A stretch of DNA of 64,000 nucleotides from Rhodanobacter sp. DHB23 (GTDB lineage: Bacteria > Pseudomonadota > Gammaproteobacteria > Xanthomonadales > Rhodanobacteraceae), in contig NZ_JACYXK010000029.1 of assembly GCF_014842975.1 (NCBI RefSeq), positions 310,001 through 374,000 of the forward strand, given 5' to 3'. The notes beneath the pieces were generated by a model, which searched no databases, had not been told where the DNA came from, and was given only the letters and a program-made list of their open reading frames with translations. The position numbers and the translations under genes were made by a program. Positions 13,673 through 22,285 of this stretch are shown here, one piece after another; position 1 is the first letter of the stretch, and every line of letters starts with the position of its first letter.

Positions 13673-13750
13673 GTAGGAGCGCACCTTGTGCGCGAATGCC
13701 TTGATGCTCGATCGGAGTCAAAAGCATTCGCGCACAAGGTGCGCTCCTAC
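13673..13750. repeat. REP pair (BIME) with GTAG heads
   Basis: GTAGGAGCGCACCTTGTGCG at 13673 is mirrored by CGCACAAGGTGCGCTCCTAC ending at 13750, with a spacer of about 35 bases. Each arm also holds an inner palindrome (GCGCACCTTGTGCGC). GTAG-headed REPs in inverted pairs are the substrates of RAYT proteins. It sits between the phosphoesterase stop and pip. Confidence 0.85.
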
Positions 13751-13766
13751 ATCGAGGAATATCACC

Positions 13767-14720
13767 ATGCGCGAGCTGTACCCCGAAATCGAGCCCTTCC
13801 GCACGCGCCGCTTCGCGGTGGATGCGCGTCACACGCTATACGTGGAAGAGTGCGGCACGCCCGGCGCATTGCCGGCGGTGTTCCTGCACGGCGGCCCTGG
13901 CGCGGGCATCGCGCCCTATCATCGCCGCTTCTTCGATCCCAGGCGCTGGCACGTGGTGCTGTTCGACCAGCGCGGCGCGGGGCAGTCCACGCCGTTCGCC
14001 GACCTCGTCGACAACACCACGGCGCACCTCGTCGCCGACATCGAGGCATTGCGCGAGGAACTCGGCATCGAACGCTGGGTAGTGTTCGGCGGCTCGTGGG
14101 GTTCCACGCTGGCGCTGGCCTACGCCGAGGCGCATCCCGAGCGCGTGCTGGGACTGGTGCTGCGCGGCATCTTCCTCGCGCGCGACGAGGAGTTGCGCTG
14201 GTTCAACGAGGCGGACGGCGGCGCGCGTTTCATCTTCCCCGAGCGCTGGGCACGCTTCCGCGATTTCATCCCGGAGGCCGAGCGCGGCGACATGATAGTG
14301 GCGTACTGGAAGCGCCTCGACGGCGACGACGAGGCACTGCGCCTCGCCGCCGCGCAGGCGTGGAGCGAGTACGAGGGCGGCAGCACCACGCTGGTCCACG
14401 ACCCGGACGCCAGCGGCGATTTCGCCGAGCCGCACAAGGCGGTGAGCCTCGCACGGCTCGAGGCGCACTACTTCCGCCACGGCATGTTCCTCGGGCCGGA
14501 CCAGCTGCTGCGCGACGTGGCGAAGATCCGCCGCATCCCCGCCACCATCGTGCACGGGCGCTACGACATCATCTGTCCGGTGAAGACGGCGCTCGACCTG
14601 CATGCGGCCTGGCCGGAGGCGGAATTGCGCATCGTGCTGGCCGGCCACAGCGCGGCCGATCCGGCCATCGTCGATGCGCTGGTGGAGGCTACCGACAAGC
14701 TGGCGGATCGTTACGGCTGA
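13767..14720 (+). CDS. pip: prolyl aminopeptidase
   Basis: 317 residues from ATG 13767, ribosome site GAGGAA. Removes N-terminal proline from peptides. Alpha/beta hydrolase fold of peptidase family S33: oxyanion motif HGGPG (41-45), FDQRGAGQS (67-74), nucleophile elbow GGSWGS (S110), then VHGRYDIICP with the acid and LAGHSA with the histidine. Length is normal. The longer upstream frame reads through the REP pair and is not a real extension. Cytoplasmic. Confidence 0.95.
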   Translation: MRELYPEIEPFRTRRFAVDARHTLYVEECGTPGALPAVFLHGGPGAGIAPYHRRFFDPRRWHVVLFDQRGAGQSTPFADLVDNTTAHLVADIEALREELGIERWVVFGGSWGSTLALAYAEAHPERVLGLVLRGIFLARDEELRWFNEADGGARFIFPERWARFRDFIPEAERGDMIVAYWKRLDGDDEALRLAAAQAWSEYEGGSTTLVHDPDASGDFAEPHKAVSLARLEAHYFRHGMFLGPDQLLRDVAKIRRIPATIVHGRYDIICPVKTALDLHAAWPEAELRIVLAGHSAADPAIVDALVEATDKLADRYG

Positions 14721-15209
14721 TGCCGCTCTTCTCCCCTCTCCCTCCGGGAGAGGGGCTGGGGGTGAGGGTTCGGTCGAAGCGTGCCGCCGACATTCTGCGC
14801 AAGTCATCACTACCTCGCTTCGCCCGAACCCTCACCCGGCTGGATTTGCGCCATCCATGGCGCTTACCCCTTCGGGGCCGGCTTCGCCGTTCCGCAGGCG
14901 CTCCGGCGCCTGCAGGTCGCCACCCTCTCCCGAAGGCCTGATTAGCGTCGAGTCTCAGCGGCAAGCCGATTTGCTCCTCCCCCTGCTTGCAGGGGGAGGT
15001 TGGGAGGGGGTGAAACCCTGCGAAAGACTCTCATGTATGGCTTTCGCAAGAACCTGACCCCACCCCAGCCCTCCCCTGCATGCAGGGGAGGGAGACCGAA
15101 CATGGCACGACTGAGACTCGACGCTAATCAGGTCCCGAAGGGAGAGGGATTCACTGGCAATGCCCACGCGAACTCGAACCTCTCGCTTCGTTGATCGATG
15201 GCGAGCAGA
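14721..15209. other. nested palindromic intergenic repeats
   Basis: No gene here. It starts with the hairpin CCCCTCTCCC-TCC-GGGAGAGGGG (14733-14755), then an inverted pair of GGGTGAGGGTTCGG-type words, and a perfect 22-base inverted repeat at 14937-14958 and 15111-15132. Inside that lie two mirror-image copies of a CCTCCCCCTGC-type hairpin (about 14974-15012 and 15056-15095). Confidence 0.7.
14937..15132. repeat. MITE-like element with 22-base perfect terminal inverted repeats
   Basis: The left end contains GATTAGCGTCGAGTCTCAG and the right end CTGAGACTCGACGCTAATC. Outside both ends are CTCTCCC-type words in mirror orientation. Inside, two hairpins are also in mirror image. It has no coding capacity. 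The arrangement suggests a small non-autonomous element or a composite of two intergenic repeats. Confidence 0.55.
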
Positions 15210-15893
15210 TCAGGCTTCCGGATTCGCCGATGGCTTCTTTCGCCGTATGCCACCCGCGCGCGCAGGTTTGCGCACAGCGACCGCACCATCGGCATCGCCG
15301 CCAGCAACCGCGCCGCCGCCAACCTGCTCCATCCACGTCAGCACGTCGGTATACGCAATGAAGTGCTGCAGGTATTCGGGCGAGACTTCGCGCATCAGCA
15401 TCATGGCGCGGTAGGTCAGCACGCTGGAGTGCAGCGGGCCGGCATCTTCGGAGAGCGAGTCCAGACACTGGCGCAGCAGGCTGTCGATGCGGATGCGGCT
15501 CCACAGTTGCTGGAACTCGTCCAGCACCGGCATCGGCGCGGTGTCGATGGCGAGTGCCTGCCCGCCGGATTCGTTGGCTTGCACCGCAGCCGCGGTTTGC
15601 GTAGCGGCATCCAGCCGCGGTGCGCTGGCGAAATACGCCATGAGTTGCTTCAGCGGACTTTCGCCGGCGCCGCGCGCCGGCTGCGCCCCGGGGGGACTGG
15701 CGAGCAGGTCGGCATAGGCATCGACCAGTTCGCGCAGGCGTGCGTCCAGCCGTTGCCGCACCGCGCCGTCGTGGCGTGCTGCACGCCGCGCCAGCGCATC
15801 CATCCATGCGAAGCGCAACGGGTCGGCGCGATCGGCGCCCTGCTGGCGCCATGCGGCGAGCCGCGCATGCGGGTCGCCCTGCTCAGCGCGCAT
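15210..15893 (-). CDS. DUF2894 family protein
   Basis: 227 residues, starting inside the preceding OmpA-like gene (11-base overlap). Recognised by the family pattern: LAAWRQQGADRADPLRFAWMDALARRA near the N-terminus and LTYRAMMLMREVSPEYLQHFIAYTDVLTWMEQ near 165-195. No signal peptide or membrane segment, so cytoplasmic; the last 25 residues are basic. Fourth gene of a minus-strand block with DUF3348, DUF802 and OmpA/MotB-like genes. Function of the family is unknown to me. Confidence 0.85.
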   Translation of the reverse strand: MRAEQGDPHARLAAWRQQGADRADPLRFAWMDALARRAARHDGAVRQRLDARLRELVDAYADLLASPPGAQPARGAGESPLKQLMAYFASAPRLDAATQTAAAVQANESGGQALAIDTAPMPVLDEFQQLWSRIRIDSLLRQCLDSLSEDAGPLHSSVLTYRAMMLMREVSPEYLQHFIAYTDVLTWMEQVGGGAVAGGDADGAVAVRKPARAGGIRRKKPSANPEA

Positions 15894-16530
15894 CGGCCTT
15901 GCCGTCGTTCTTCTGGCGCGGGACCGGGGCGATTTCCACGCGGCGGTTCTTCGCGCGGCCTGCCTCGTCGTCGTTGGAGCCTACCGGCTGCCCGGCGCCG
16001 AACGCGGCGGCGAACACCGACGATGCCGGCACGCCGTCGGCGATCAGCGCGCGGGTGACGGTGAGCGCGCGCGCCGCCGACAGCTCCCAGTTGTCGGCGA
16101 AGCGCGCGTTGGCCGCGCGCACCGGCTGGTTGTCGGTGAAGCCGCTGATCATCAGGATCTCGTCGCGCGAACGGAGGTAATCGCGCAGCGGGCCCGCGAT
16201 GCTCTGCAGCAGTTCGCGGCCCGCGGGCTGCAACTGGTCGGAGTTGAGCGCGAACAGCACGCTGCCGCTGATGCCGATGCGGCCATCGACCAGGGTCACG
16301 CGCCCGGCGGCCAGCGGCGCGGCCAGCGCCTGCTCCAGCGTCCTGAGCCGGGCGGCCTCGGCCTGGCGCTGCTTCACTTCCTGGTCCAGGCGGTGGTGCA
16401 GCAGCAGCTGCACGCCGATGACGCTGGCCAGGATCAGCACGAACACGCCGAGCAGCACCGACATCAGGTCGCCGAACGCGGCCCAGGTGGTGGCGCTGGA
16501 CTCGGCGTCGAACTCGATCTCGTCGCTCAT
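15883..16530 (-). CDS. MotB/OmpA-like membrane protein
   Basis: 215 residues from ATG 16528-16530, overlapping the DUF802 stop by four bases (translational coupling). One N-terminal membrane segment (about 16-40, WAAFGDLMSVLLGVFVLILA) carries W16 and D21 in the position of the proton-binding aspartate of MotB/ZorB-type stators. A linker is followed by an OmpA peptidoglycan-binding domain (about 85-205: SGSVLFALNSDQL, ISGFTDNQPV, NWELSAARA, GRAKNRRVEI). Predicted to anchor a MotA-like partner, encoded immediately upstream, to the cell wall. Confidence 0.88.
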   Translation of the reverse strand: MSDEIEFDAESSATTWAAFGDLMSVLLGVFVLILASVIGVQLLLHHRLDQEVKQRQAEAARLRTLEQALAAPLAAGRVTLVDGRIGISGSVLFALNSDQLQPAGRELLQSIAGPLRDYLRSRDEILMISGFTDNQPVRAANARFADNWELSAARALTVTRALIADGVPASSVFAAAFGAGQPVGSNDDEAGRAKNRRVEIAPVPRQKNDGKADAR

Positions 16531-18911
16531 GCGCTGGCGGCCCCGGCAAGCTGCTGCAGCTCGCCGATGATCTGCTTCTGCGACAGCATGCTCAGCTCGA
16601 TCACCTCGCGCGCCTGCGCCACGTAGTAGGCCAGTTGCTCGTCGCTGCGCGCCAGCGACTTGTCCAGCGCCGACTCGATGCCCTGCAGGCGGCCGTTCAG
16701 CGCCTCGGTGGACTGGCCGAACAGCTGCACCGCCGTGCCGAACGCCTCGCCCAGGCTGGCCACTTCCACCGCGCTGCCGGTGACGTGCGCGGCGGCCTCG
16801 TCGAGCTTGCCGCGCTCGTCCTCGATCTGCGCGGTGAAGCGGCTGCCGACGCGTTCCAGCAGGTCGGCCGAGGTGGACACCAGCGCGTCGATCGCGCCGC
16901 GCTGCTCGGTGGAAGCGTGGTTGACCGCGTCGAGCAGGGTTTCCAGCGTGGCCAGCAGGCGGCCGCGTTCCTCCAGCATCGCGGTGTCGCGCACCATGCT
17001 GTCGGACAGTTTCTGCCGCAGCTCGGCCACCACTTCGGCAGCGGCGCGCGGTGCCTCGGAAGCCGTGGCGACCAGCCGCGCGATCTCGGCCAGCGTGTCG
17101 CGGGCCTGCACCTGCGCCTGTTCGCTGATCGCCTGCACGGTTTCTTCCAGCGTGGCGCAGACCTGCTGCTGGTGCGCGGCGAGCTGTCCGCTGCTGTGCT
17201 CCCAGCGCTGGCCGAACTCGCCGGTCAGCGTGGCGAAGGCCTCGCGCCACTGCGCGAGGCGCTCGGCGTCGCGCGCCTGCAACGCATCCTGCAATTCGCC
17301 GTGCGAGCGCTGCAGCGACTGGATCATCGCGTCGCTGCGCTGCGCGAACGCCGCGGCGGCTTCGGTCAGCGCCTGCGCATTGCCGGCGATGCCGTCCAGC
17401 GCGCCGCCCGCCGCCGCCTGCAATTGCGTGGCGACTTCGCCGGCGGTGCGCGCCAGCGCGTCGCAGACCTGTTGCTGTTGTTGCGTCACCTGCGCGCCGT
17501 TGCGCTGCCAGCTTTCGTCGAGCGCGGCGAGCATGGCCGACAGCGACTGCGACCACTGCGCCAGGCGCTGCTCGTCGCGCGCGGCCAGCGCCGACTGCAG
17601 TTCGCCGTGCGATTGCTGCAGGCTGCCGACGAGGGCACGCGCGTGCTCGTCGAAACTGGCCGAAGCCGCCACCAGCGCCTGCTCGTTGCGCCGGGCGAGC
17701 GCGTCGTGCGCTTCATGCTGGCTCGTGAGCGCAGCGCTCCAAGCTTCGGCGGTGCGCCGGGTGTTGTCCTCCAGGCGCGCAGCCACGCCATCGACCAGCG
17801 TCGCCGAACGCTGCTCGAAGGTGGCGGCGAATTGCTGCAAGGCCTGCCGCAAGTCCTCCGCCTGCGCCGCGTTGCCGCGCTGCTGCTCGGCCACGGCCGC
17901 GCCCCAGCTTTCGCGGGCCGCGCCGGCCGCGCCCTGCACGGCGGCATCGAGGCCGTCGAGTTGCCGGCGCACGGCGTGTTCGATGGACGCGTGCAATCGA
18001 CCGGACTGTTCGGCCAGTCCCGCCATGGTGGTGTCCACCACCGGCTGCAGCGCGGCGCCCACGGCGTTGGCCTGCTGGGCGATGCCGTCGTGCAACGCCT
18101 GCTGCAGCGTCGTGGCCAGCCGGGTCCAGGCGGCTTCGGTGCGCTGGTGGAAGGCCTGCTGGTCGGCGTGCAGGCGCTCGTCCGCGGATTGCTGCCGGCG
18201 CTCCAGCGTGTCGGTCAGCATGTGCAGGCGATCCACCAGCGCCGGCATCAACGCGTTCTGTTCCTGCAGCAGGCGGAAGGTTTCGCGGCGCTGCGCCGAC
18301 GGCGAATGCTGCCCCAGGTGCATCGCGATGCCGGCGTCCAGCTGCTGCACGGCCTGCGCGCGCTCACGCCGCAGCAGCGCCGACAGCAAGCCCAGCGCCG
18401 CCGAGGTTGCCACACCCGCGATGGAAGTGCCGAAGGCGAAGCCCAGGCCCTTGACCGGCGCGGCCAGCGAACTGCGGATGGCATCCAGGTCGGTGGCGCT
18501 TTCCAGCGCGAGGCCGGTGCCGCGCAGCGTGGCCATCATGCCCAGCAGGGTGCCCAGCATGCCCAGCAGCACCAGCAGGCCCACCAGGTAGGGTGCCAGC
18601 GCCGGCGCCGGCAGGCCGACGCGTTCGCCTTCGACGCGCAGGCGCACGCTGTTGCGCAGGCCGGGATGCAGGCGGACCAGCCAGTCGCCCGGATGGGTTC
18701 CGGCCTGTTCGATGGACGGCAATGCGCGCAGCAGCGTGGCGGTGGCCTGGCCGTAGCGCAGCAGCTCGAACGAACCCGCGAGATAGCACGCGGCGATCAG
18801 GGCGGCGACGGCGAAGGCCAGCGTGTGGTTGCCGAGATAGCCGATGGCTATCCAGCCCACGACCAGCAGGCCGGCCAGGAAGACGATGGGAGCGACGAGG
18901 TTTCGGGACAT
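16527..18911 (-). CDS. MotA-like membrane protein with long helical tail (DUF802)
   Basis: 794 residues from ATG 18909-18911, six bases after the DUF3348 stop. Four membrane segments in MotA/TolQ/ExbB topology: about 5-25, 30-51, 106-128 and 157-180. The signature GMLGTLLGMMATLRGTG and VKGLGFAFGTSIAGVATSAA covers TM3-TM4. Residues 181-794 are almost entirely helical, Ala/Gln/Glu/Arg-rich and probably cytoplasmic, with two about 100-residue repeats (SLQQSHGELQSALAARDEQ near 429, SLQRSHGELQDALQARDAE near 529). Members of the MotA family form ion-driven pentamers around a MotB dimer. The very long tail is unlike flagellar MotA and resembles ZorA of Zorya phage defence. Confidence 0.88.
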   Translation of the reverse strand: MSRNLVAPIVFLAGLLVVGWIAIGYLGNHTLAFAVAALIAACYLAGSFELLRYGQATATLLRALPSIEQAGTHPGDWLVRLHPGLRNSVRLRVEGERVGLPAPALAPYLVGLLVLLGMLGTLLGMMATLRGTGLALESATDLDAIRSSLAAPVKGLGFAFGTSIAGVATSAALGLLSALLRRERAQAVQQLDAGIAMHLGQHSPSAQRRETFRLLQEQNALMPALVDRLHMLTDTLERRQQSADERLHADQQAFHQRTEAAWTRLATTLQQALHDGIAQQANAVGAALQPVVDTTMAGLAEQSGRLHASIEHAVRRQLDGLDAAVQGAAGAARESWGAAVAEQQRGNAAQAEDLRQALQQFAATFEQRSATLVDGVAARLEDNTRRTAEAWSAALTSQHEAHDALARRNEQALVAASASFDEHARALVGSLQQSHGELQSALAARDEQRLAQWSQSLSAMLAALDESWQRNGAQVTQQQQQVCDALARTAGEVATQLQAAAGGALDGIAGNAQALTEAAAAFAQRSDAMIQSLQRSHGELQDALQARDAERLAQWREAFATLTGEFGQRWEHSSGQLAAHQQQVCATLEETVQAISEQAQVQARDTLAEIARLVATASEAPRAAAEVVAELRQKLSDSMVRDTAMLEERGRLLATLETLLDAVNHASTEQRGAIDALVSTSADLLERVGSRFTAQIEDERGKLDEAAAHVTGSAVEVASLGEAFGTAVQLFGQSTEALNGRLQGIESALDKSLARSDEQLAYYVAQAREVIELSMLSQKQIIGELQQLAGAASA

Positions 18912-18917
18912 GGAGCG

Positions 18918-19739
18918 TTACCGGGTGCGCAGCGCTGCGAGCAGGCCGTCGATGGGGTGGAAGCGGACCTCCAGTTCGGCCAGCAGCGCCATGCGCATGT
19001 CCTGGCGGAACCGCGCCAGCCAGGGGCCGGCGGCAGGCGTCGCAGAGGTATCGTCAAGCGCAGAGGCTCTACTCCCCTCTCCCGCTTGCGGGAGAGGGGT
19101 CGGGGGAGAGGGCACGCTTCGCCCACGACCCCTATCCCGCCCTTCGGGCACCCTCTCCCGCAAGCGGGAGAGGGATTCATCAGGCAGCGTCTGCGTGTAT
19201 TGAAGCTTCTCGGTGTCGCGCAGGTGCTGGTAATGCAGGCCAAGCAGGCTCGGGACACGGGCCAGCAACATCAGTTCGCGCGGACTGAGCGTGGCCTCCA
19301 TCACCGCATCGACCTCGGCCAGCCGCGCCTTGGCCGGCGACTGGCGGGCCAGCGCGTCGCGCAGGCGGCCGCGCAGCAGGCCGGTGGCCGACTGCATCGC
19401 GCGCTGCACGGCCACGCAATGCTGGCGGTAGGGCTGGTAGTCGAGCGCAGGCGCGATGTCGGCATCGATGGCCTGCACCAGCGACTGGCGCACTTCCGCG
19501 CACCCGGCATCCTGCATGTCGTCGACATCCCTGTCGTCTCCGGCCCTGTCGCCCTCCGCAGCCGGCAGGTTGCCGTCCAGCGCGCGCGACAGCACCAGTG
19601 CGCGATTCCAGTCGAACCACTGCGCCAGCCGCTCGGTCAACACCGGCGGCGTGCGCGGCAGGTCGGCATCGCTGAAGCGGGCCAGCAGGCGAATGAACGC
19701 CGGGCCCAGCACGGGCGCCCGTGAGGAAGCTTTCGCCAT
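18918..19739 (-). CDS. DUF3348 family protein carrying an in-frame repeat insertion
   Basis: 273 residues from ATG 19737-19739. The family N-terminus is clear: RAPVLGPAFIRLLARFSDADLP followed by LTERLAQWFDWNRALVLSRALDG. The C-terminus ends FRQDMRMALLAELEVRFHPIDGLLAAL. Between them, residues about 189-222 (SLSRLRERVPEGRDRGRGRS... PLPQAGEGS) are the translation of an intergenic palindromic repeat. No membrane segment or signal. First gene of the four-gene block; the tight spacing implies one transcript. Function unknown. A longer upstream frame has no support. Confidence 0.85.
   Translation of the reverse strand: MAKASSRAPVLGPAFIRLLARFSDADLPRTPPVLTERLAQWFDWNRALVLSRALDGNLPAAEGDRAGDDRDVDDMQDAGCAEVRQSLVQAIDADIAPALDYQPYRQHCVAVQRAMQSATGLLRGRLRDALARQSPAKARLAEVDAVMEATLSPRELMLLARVPSLLGLHYQHLRDTEKLQYTQTLPDESLSRLRERVPEGRDRGRGRSVPSPPTPLPQAGEGSRASALDDTSATPAAGPWLARFRQDMRMALLAELEVRFHPIDGLLAALRTR
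19074..19174. repeat. CCCTCTCCCGC palindrome pair inside a coding gene
   Basis: CCCCTCTCCCGC-TT-GCGGGAGAGGGG (19074-19099) and CCCTCTCCCGC-AA-GCGGGAGAGGG (19151-19174) are members of the family also found at 14733, 26516, 48608 and 48774. Here they lie inside the DUF3348 gene without breaking its frame. Confidence 0.85.
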
Positions 19740-19913: not shown

Positions 19914-22088
19914 TTACGACTGGGCCGGCACGACATCGCCGGCCACCACCGGCGGCGCGGGCAACGCGCGTTCGTGCTCGAGCAACCAGCGCCGGAAGCC
20001 CGCATCGTCCACCGGGCGGCAGATCAGGTAACCCTGCAGGCCATCGCAACCCAGCGCCACCAGCACCTGCCGCTGCGCCTCGGTCTCCACGCCTTCGGCC
20101 ACCGTGGCGATGCCGAGGCGATGCGCCACGTCGACGATGAAGCCGGCCAACGGGTCGGTGTCGGCGGGTGCCAGCCCGCTGACGAAGGCGCGGTCGATCT
20201 TGATGACGTCCAGCGGCAGGCGTTGCAGGTAGCTCAGCGAGGAATAGCCGACGCCGAAATCGTCCAGCGCGAGATGGAAGCCGGCGCCGACCAGGCGGCG
20301 CAGCATCGCCAGCGTGCCGTCGAAATCCTGCAGCAAGGCGCTTTCGGTCAGTTCCAGCGTCAGCCGTTCGGGCGCGATGCCGGCGCCACGCACCTGCCGC
20401 TCCAGTTGCGTGGCGAAATGCGGATGCGCCAGTTGCCACGCGCTGACATTGATCGCGAGCCGCCCGTGGAAGGCCACGCCGTCGCGCTCCCAGGCCCTGA
20501 GCCGTGCGCAGGCCTCGGTGATCACCCAGGCGCCAAGCGCGTGGATCAGGCCGGTTTCCTCGGCCAGCGGAATGAACCGGTCCGGCGACAGCTCGCCGTA
20601 CTGCGGATGGCGCCAGCGCAGCAGCGCCTCGGCACCCAGCAGGCGGCCATCACGATCCAGCTGCGGCTGGAAATGCAGGGCGAACTGCGCGTGCTCGGCG
20701 TCGCATTCCAGGGCCTCGCGCAGGCCGCGCTCCAGCAACAGGCGGGTGTCGGCTTCCCGCTGCATCGGCGCCTCGAACAGGCGCGCCATGCTGCGCCCGG
20801 CCGCCTTGGCTCGGTACAGCGCGATGTCGGCGTGGCGCAGCAGGTCGGTGACGTCGGCCTCGCCATCCGGGAACATCACCATGCCCACGCTGGCGCCCAC
20901 GGCGAGCATGCGGTCATCCACCGCCACCGGCTCGGCCAGCCGCGCGATCAACTGTTCGGCCAGCCGCTGCGCCTGCGCCCGCGCATCGGCCAGTGCGCAG
21001 GGCAGCGGCCCCAGCAACAGCACGAACTCGTCGCCGCCAAGCCGCGCCAGCAGGGACTGCGGTGGCGCGATCGCGAGCAGGCGCGCGGCGACCGCCTCCA
21101 GCAGGCGGTCGCCGACCAGGTGGCCCAGGCCGTCGTTGATGGTCTTGAAGTTGTCCAGGTCGATCAGCAGCAACGCGCCGCAACAGCCCTGCGCCCGCGC
21201 TTCGTCGCGCACGCCTTCGAGGTGTTCGAGCAGTCGGCTGCGGTTGGGCAGGCCGGTGAGGCCGTCGTGGTAGGCGAGATGCAGCAGCTTGTGTTCCGCC
21301 GCCTGGCGGGTCTGCTCCTCGATCTCCAGCCGCCGCCTGACCGACTCGAGTTGCCGCGTCTGCTGGCGCAACTGCGCCGCCAGCGACAGGCTCATCAGCA
21401 GCACGAAGGGCAGGAAGGCGAACGCATCGAGGTAGGGCGAAGGCACGCCAAGCACGTCGATGGCGATGTCGCCCCACAGCAGCGCGGCGAACTCGATGGC
21501 GAGGCAGATGCCCAGCAGCATGGCCAGCATGGCTTCGCCACGCCGCCACTGCCGCCATGCCCGGCCCAGCGCCCAGGTGAACAGCGCGTAGGTCGCGGCA
21601 TGGAACAGCCAACCCCAGGCCGACACCACGCCGTCGAGCCGGTACAGCCGCTCGCCCCAGGGCAACGTGATGCCCTGGCCGGCCCGCAGCTCGCTGAAGA
21701 ACAGCGTCGCCGGCGCGCCCAGGTTGACGCAGAAGAAGAGCAGCAACACCGCGCCCAGCACCAGCACGGTACGCCAGCCGGTGGCGTCGCCGGTGTAGCC
21801 GCGGATGAACACGACGAACGGCAGGAACGACAGCACCGCCGCGCCGATGGTCCAGCGGATCGCCGCCACGGCATCGGCCAGGTCTGCGGCATCGTTCTGG
21901 CGCACGTTGCCCAGCGCCAGCGCCGCGATCAGGAAGCACAGCAGCGCATAGGACAGGTGGATCGCGCTGCGCCGTTGCCACAGGCCGATCACCGTGTATT
22001 GCACGCCCGACGCGAAGGCAATGCCGGCGGCGGCGATCAACGCGACCGAGAAATAGCCCACCGCCGGCAAATACACCCCGTCCAGCAT
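19914..22088 (-). CDS. membrane GGDEF-EAL protein (c-di-GMP metabolism)
   Basis: 724 residues from ATG 22086-22088 (GGGGGCGGGC upstream; an ATG at 22104-22106 is an alternative). The N-terminal about 250 residues form seven or so membrane segments. A short coiled coil (RQLESVRRRLEIEEQTRQ) leads into a GGDEF domain with intact LARLGGDEFVLLL, then an EAL domain with GAEALLRWRHP, NVSAWQL, ELTES, LDDFGVGYSSLSYL and VAEGVET. Both active sites look complete, so it could make or break c-di-GMP. Divergent from another GGDEF gene at 22286 with 197 bases between. Confidence 0.92.
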   Translation of the reverse strand: MLDGVYLPAVGYFSVALIAAAGIAFASGVQYTVIGLWQRRSAIHLSYALLCFLIAALALGNVRQNDAADLADAVAAIRWTIGAAVLSFLPFVVFIRGYTGDATGWRTVLVLGAVLLLFFCVNLGAPATLFFSELRAGQGITLPWGERLYRLDGVVSAWGWLFHAATYALFTWALGRAWRQWRRGEAMLAMLLGICLAIEFAALLWGDIAIDVLGVPSPYLDAFAFLPFVLLMSLSLAAQLRQQTRQLESVRRRLEIEEQTRQAAEHKLLHLAYHDGLTGLPNRSRLLEHLEGVRDEARAQGCCGALLLIDLDNFKTINDGLGHLVGDRLLEAVAARLLAIAPPQSLLARLGGDEFVLLLGPLPCALADARAQAQRLAEQLIARLAEPVAVDDRMLAVGASVGMVMFPDGEADVTDLLRHADIALYRAKAAGRSMARLFEAPMQREADTRLLLERGLREALECDAEHAQFALHFQPQLDRDGRLLGAEALLRWRHPQYGELSPDRFIPLAEETGLIHALGAWVITEACARLRAWERDGVAFHGRLAINVSAWQLAHPHFATQLERQVRGAGIAPERLTLELTESALLQDFDGTLAMLRRLVGAGFHLALDDFGVGYSSLSYLQRLPLDVIKIDRAFVSGLAPADTDPLAGFIVDVAHRLGIATVAEGVETEAQRQVLVALGCDGLQGYLICRPVDDAGFRRWLLEHERALPAPPVVAGDVVPAQS

Positions 22089-22285
22089 GCCCGCCCCCGT
22101 TCCCATGCAGGCGCCCAGCTTGCGCCAACCCTCACCACAAGGAAAGCCGCGCGGCCTATACATTTTGCTGCTTGCATTTTGCGAAAGCGGAGATCCAGAC
22201 TGGCCACGCATTCGCGCAAGCGTTCAGGGGCGCCAGGCCGGCGATCGACCGGATTGGCGAAGGGTGGGCCTGCCGGGGGGCTGCC

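Follow-up and report, generated by a model that had tools for sequence, protein, structure and literature searches.

The flagellar stator MotAB is characterised by MotA-like helices and a MotB-type membrane aspartate. It shares both with the ZorA and ZorB proteins analysed here, which differ from it by a tail of ~600 residues and by dedicated partners, the DUF3348 and DUF2894 proteins. The Zorya systems of types I and II, as described by Mariano et al. (2025, PMC11890865), likewise contain a long-tailed ZorA and a MotB/OmpA-like ZorB, which form a 5:2 assembly, and defence depends on the membrane aspartate, on the binding of peptidoglycan and on the tail. According to the same paper, type I also has ZorC and ZorD and type II has ZorE, in place of which the present locus has DUF3348 and DUF2894. 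Zorya type III was named and phage-tested in 2021 by Payne et al. (PMC8565338), who report 6,401 cases in which DUF3348 and DUF2894 genes flank zor pairs. The type III locus tested in that work, from Stenotrophomonas nitritireducens DSM 12575 (NZ_LDJG01000021.1), protected against phage when expressed from a plasmid in E. coli BL21-AI, which is not its native host (PMC8565338). The names of the accessory proteins are in conflict, as DUF3348 is ZorF and DUF2894 is ZorG in both papers (PMC8565338, PMC11890865), whereas PADLOC-DB 2.0.0 has them reversed.

Composition and assignment of the four-gene block

The window, i.e. the whole stretch of 64,000 nucleotides of Rhodanobacter sp. DHB23 DNA that was analysed, contains at positions 15210-19739 a packed block of four genes, DUF3348, zorA, zorB and DUF2894, all on the minus strand (Table 1). 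The junctions listed in the initial annotation were confirmed from the coordinates, with a gap of 6 bases between DUF3348 and zorA, an overlap of 4 bases between zorA and zorB and an overlap of 11 bases between zorB and DUF2894.

Table 1. Features of the Zorya locus and its immediate surroundings in the window
Feature	Coordinates	Strand	Description and evidence
DUF3348 gene	18918..19739	-	273 aa; Pfam PF11828 5.5e-67; PADLOC ZorG3 8.6e-73
zorA3 (DUF802 protein)	16527..18911	-	794 aa; PADLOC ZorA3 E=0, 1108 bits
zorB3 (OmpA protein)	15883..16530	-	215 aa; PADLOC ZorB3 1.7e-109; Pfam OmpA 4.7e-18
DUF2894 gene, basic C-terminal tail	15210..15893	-	227 aa; Pfam PF11445 5e-43; PADLOC ZorF3 4.6e-64
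zorA3 tail internal duplication	17247..17621	-	69-nt copies, 80% identical, 306 nt (102 codons) apart
Inverted-repeat element within DUF3348 gene	19075..19174	.	24-nt perfect arms, in frame
Alpha/beta hydrolase gene, left edge of insertion site	13686..14720	+	Pfam; site comparison
GGDEF-EAL gene, right edge of insertion site	19914..22211	-	Pfam; site comparison

All four proteins match the PADLOC models of Zorya type III, with E-values of 4.6e-64 or lower. For ZorA, the type III model gave E = 0 and 1108 bits, compared to 3.2e-10 for the best type I model, and for ZorB the corresponding values were 1.7e-109 and 4.2e-18. Pfam, PADLOC and the coordinates agree that zorAB is flanked by the DUF3348 and DUF2894 genes, as type III requires. 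Neither ZorC and ZorD of type I nor the ZorE nuclease of type II was present among the four proteins, and none of the seven neighbours in the window that were scanned had a PADLOC match at 1e-10. These matches make it very probable that the block represents a complete anti-phage operon of Zorya type III. They also bear out the initial annotation in its reading of a Zorya-like long-tailed motor. Its further proposal of an unrecognised machine of unknown role is ruled out by the same matches together with the 2021 publication and phage test of type III by Payne et al. (PMC8565338). Similarly, it was right that the accessory genes are not ZorC, ZorD or ZorE but wrong to find them puzzling, since the description of type III in that paper makes them its defining partners. 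The reading from the sequence had rediscovered a defence type already published, of which this locus is an ordinary representative.

The contig of the phage-tested S. nitritireducens system was recovered as locus L116 by a scan with a ZorB alignment. Its gene order is identical to that of the window, and its ZorA is of 798 aa, compared to 794 aa. Over the best aligned segment, identity between the two loci amounts to 83% for ZorA, 88% for ZorB, 62% for DUF3348 and 67% for DUF2894. The hosts belong to different families, Lysobacteraceae for S. nitritireducens and Rhodanobacteraceae for the window, and the DUF3348 protein of the window contains an in-frame repeat insert that the S. nitritireducens protein lacks.

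Motor subunits and accessory proteins

ZorA starts with a MotA/ExbB-like membrane part (approximately residues 1-190), followed by a cytoplasmic tail of ~600 residues with two DUF802 repeats (Pfam DUF802, 5.3e-22, two stretches). The Pfam families of the Mot proteins remained below their cut-offs, with 18.3 bits for MotA_ExbB in ZorA (cut-off 22.9) and 13.3 bits for MotB_plug in ZorB (cut-off 24), and the Mot relationship therefore rests on PADLOC and on a profile match to the PDB. When the ZorA membrane part was compared to the PDB by profile, the sole match at E 0.01 was 8vvn_C (1.7e-5), a MotA/TolQ/ExbB chain of 696 residues present in five copies in its entry; the single-sequence search of the PDB with ZorA gave no match. 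From its length, which agrees with the residues numbered in Mariano et al. (PMC11890865), we infer that 8vvn_C is the type I ZorA of Shewanella. The ZorA3 match in PADLOC and the 8vvn_C profile match agree with the earlier description of the DUF802 protein as MotA-like with a long cytoplasmic tail.

ZorB carries aspartate 21 in the motif WAAFGDLMSV, at the start of a predicted membrane helix (read by eye), and an OmpA-type putative peptidoglycan-binding domain. Two partly overlapping sets of relatives were used for comparison: a first set of 34 loci (33 from the family plus the window, out of 71 family carriers), which were compared in full, and 80 named loci, the best 80 of 589 by ZorB similarity. 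D21 is invariant in the 14 rows of the alignment, and FGDLMS is present in the ZorB proteins of 78 named loci out of 80 as well as in all 34 of the first set, the two sets sharing some genomes. The polar stretch FGTSIAG is kept in ZorA of 79 of the 80. The invariant D21, the OmpA domain and the PADLOC ZorB3 match thus confirm the MotB-like partner that had been proposed for the DUF802 protein. In NCBIfam, the only family that ZorB passes among the matches listed (25 of 39 families) is PRK09040, 'hypothetical protein', with 360 bits for a cut-off of 194.

The length of ZorA varies among relatives. A ZorA of 698 aa occurs in 23 of the 34 loci of the first set but in just 18 of the 80 named loci (sets with genomes in common), which rules out a strictly fixed tail length; of the other named loci, 10 have 754 aa, 11 have 797-801 aa, 5 have 884-885 aa and 36 lie elsewhere. 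In the alignment, the ZorA of the window includes a duplicated stretch where shorter relatives are gapped. This duplication was found by a nucleotide repeat search and was not seen in a BLASTP self-comparison of the protein. The tail lengths look stepped across the relatives.

The accessory proteins are the type-specific half of Zorya III. A profile search of the PDB with DUF3348 gave no relative at E 1, and the same search with DUF2894 gave weak helical matches only (best E 0.018); we know of no activity for either protein. The last 25 residues of DUF2894 have a net charge of at least +4 in 40 of 42 rows, compared to none of 45 rows for DUF3348, and this conserved basic tail suggests that DUF2894 may contact nucleic acid. 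The inverted-repeat element at 19075-19174, of ~100 bases, adds ~34 residues to the DUF3348 protein of the window, and the other 22 rows shown are without them. Nine matches to its arm motif were found in the window, both strands counted.

Occurrence, insertion site and descent

The order DUF3348-zorA-zorB-DUF2894 was found in all 33 carrier loci that were fetched whole and in 79 of the 80 named loci, the exception (L136) being a 3.1-kb contig without DUF3348. Among 398 genomes sampled from the phylum, DUF802 was detected in 19 and DUF3348 above its cut-off in the same 19, on the same contigs and within a few kilobases; one more genome had a sub-threshold DUF3348 match. Neither domain was found in 14 control genomes. 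DUF802 occurs in 8 of the 15 genomes of the window's genus (8 of the 12 of good quality) and DUF3348 in 71 of the 197 genomes of its family, whereas DUF3348 is present in 87 of 91 genomes of genus g28 and in 51 of 60 of genus g78. In these two genera, the occurrence is more like that of a genus-core gene than that of a patchy defence gene. A universal housekeeping locus is ruled out at the level of the phylum but not at that of some genera.

In six of the eight carriers of the genus, the operon adjoins the same alpha/beta hydrolase gene, and three of these (the window, L068 and L071) have the GGDEF-EAL gene on its other side. The two others (L067 and L069) carry the operon at another location, with a ZorA that is ~50% identical. 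Near-empty sites were identified in three non-carriers (L074, L075 and L076), in which the alignments of the two neighbours end 40 to 47 bases apart. In a fourth (L077), ~1.8 kb of different sequence (L077:8283-10103) lies between the neighbours and includes a long open frame, and the site may thus take up other genes. The remaining three of the seven non-carriers were uninformative, as G007 and G010 are without one or both neighbours and G013 has no GGDEF-EAL orthologue there. In an RpoB tree, the carriers G000, G004, G008, G009 and G012 and the non-carriers G005, G011, G013 and G014 form one set (support 97). As carriers and non-carriers at this site are mixed in this way, a single gain followed by losses explains the pattern no less well than repeated gains. 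In the window itself, perfect inverted arms of 22 nt, 152 bases apart, lie at 14937-15132 between the hydrolase gene and DUF2894 and are possibly a small mobile element.

A tree was built from the N-terminal parts of ZorA together with ZorB for 82 rows, L125, L136 and L152 being left out for a short contig or a short zorA. The window falls in a clade of six rows, which lies within a 17-row set (support 100) together with eleven Stenotrophomonas and Lysobacter rows, while 24 other Rhodanobacteraceae rows fall away from this set. The sister group of the six-row clade comprises three rows, among them the S. nitritireducens locus, with a support of 89, below the level starred by the tool; sets of 13 and 17 rows that enclose both clades have a support of 100 each. 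Holding all 30 Rhodanobacteraceae rows together was rejected by the AU test (p-AU 1.34e-72, for a group named after the tree had been seen, on a quick tree and with L145 filed under Lysobacteraceae), which rules out strict descent within host families. The window's copy is placed by this tree in a lineage common to more than one family. Transfer between families and the near-empty sites fit a defence module. One locus, L138, comes from a record titled Bacillus subtilis SK7B5, and its Zorya III groups with the Stenotrophomonas rows; this record is probably contaminated or mislabelled.

Genomic context, alternatives and possible mode of action

To the negative scan of the seven window neighbours was added a comparison of the flanks of related loci, in which at most 2 of 112 proteins matched PADLOC at 1e-10, a raw count without matched background. 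The two matches are to two families with one member each and could come from one protein. Of the 260 flank genes called, 112 were scanned; they came from 28 of the 32 loci chosen among the 80. Genes were called by simple codon composition, products longer than 900 aa were excluded, and the four genes taken per locus are not in every case immediate neighbours of the operon. The Pfam families listed for the flanks (the first 25 of 92) are ordinary ones, comprising TonB receptors, transporters and enzymes. By these counts (0 of 7 in the window and at most 2 of 112 in the relatives, without matched background), no defence island was detected. Universal conservation as a core locus, without any association with defence, had been named as the outcome that would speak against a defence machine, and here the result is mixed: the locus is not universal (19 of 398 in the phylum, 71 of 197 in the family), yet it is present in nearly all genomes of g28 and its flanks are hardly defence-like. 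For a defence system, it is unusual to be present in nearly every genome of some genera and yet to lie outside defence islands.

The same occurrence in g28 and g78, together with the scarcity of PADLOC matches and the ordinary Pfam families around the operon, is what would be expected if the module were mainly a cell-envelope device resident in Xanthomonadales and Burkholderiales, such as a sensor of envelope stress or of peptidoglycan, that also blocks phage when expressed in E. coli. We consider this device unlikely, since a close relative protects directly against phage (PMC8565338), the lineage is common to different families, and the operon is patchy in the window's genus and family, with near-empty sites. 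A broader proposal is that in parts of Xanthomonadales and Burkholderiales Zorya III might belong to the genus core as a motor that senses the envelope, located away from defence islands. It would then have a resident role in addition to phage defence, and a signalling rod that changes its length in steps as coiled-coil repeats are duplicated. This proposal is speculative and seems only slightly less doubtful. The alternatives considered in this section overlap with the Zorya type III reading, so that their probabilities and that of type III need not add up to one.

It is more improbable still that the type III copy of the window has lost its function in this genome. The repeat element inside the DUF3348 gene and the 102-codon duplication in the zorA tail could be taken as signs of decay, but none of the four reading frames is interrupted, the insert in DUF3348 keeps the frame and falls where the alignment has a gap in the other rows shown, and the ZorA of the phage-tested relative is nearly as long as that of the window. 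As to a flagellar MotAB or an ExbB/TolQ-type uptake motor, the stator-type helices and the weak MotA_ExbB and MotB_plug matches are all that recalls one; with Mot matches below cut-off against type III scores of up to 1108 bits, and with DUF3348 and DUF2894 as constant partners, this candidate is ruled out and retains almost no probability.

For a Zorya type III system, a mode of action can be proposed largely by analogy with types I and II. In the inner membrane, ZorA and ZorB would assemble in a 5:2 ratio into a stator driven by ions. When phage infection disturbs the envelope, the OmpA domain of ZorB would grip the peptidoglycan, and ion flow past D21 would turn or strain the ZorA pentamer, whose long coiled tail would convey the signal into the cytoplasm. 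We further propose that DUF3348 and DUF2894 may be soluble partners that receive the signal from the tail and act against the infection, replacing ZorC and ZorD or ZorE. The part of this scheme seen directly here consists of the four type III proteins, their fixed order, the conserved aspartate of ZorB and the FGTSIAG stretch of ZorA, and we regard the mechanism as a whole as moderately probable. A literature search found no native-host deletion study of Zorya type III. A report on the infection transcriptome of Burkholderia cenocepacia lists Zorya III among the operons in which the first one or two genes changed.
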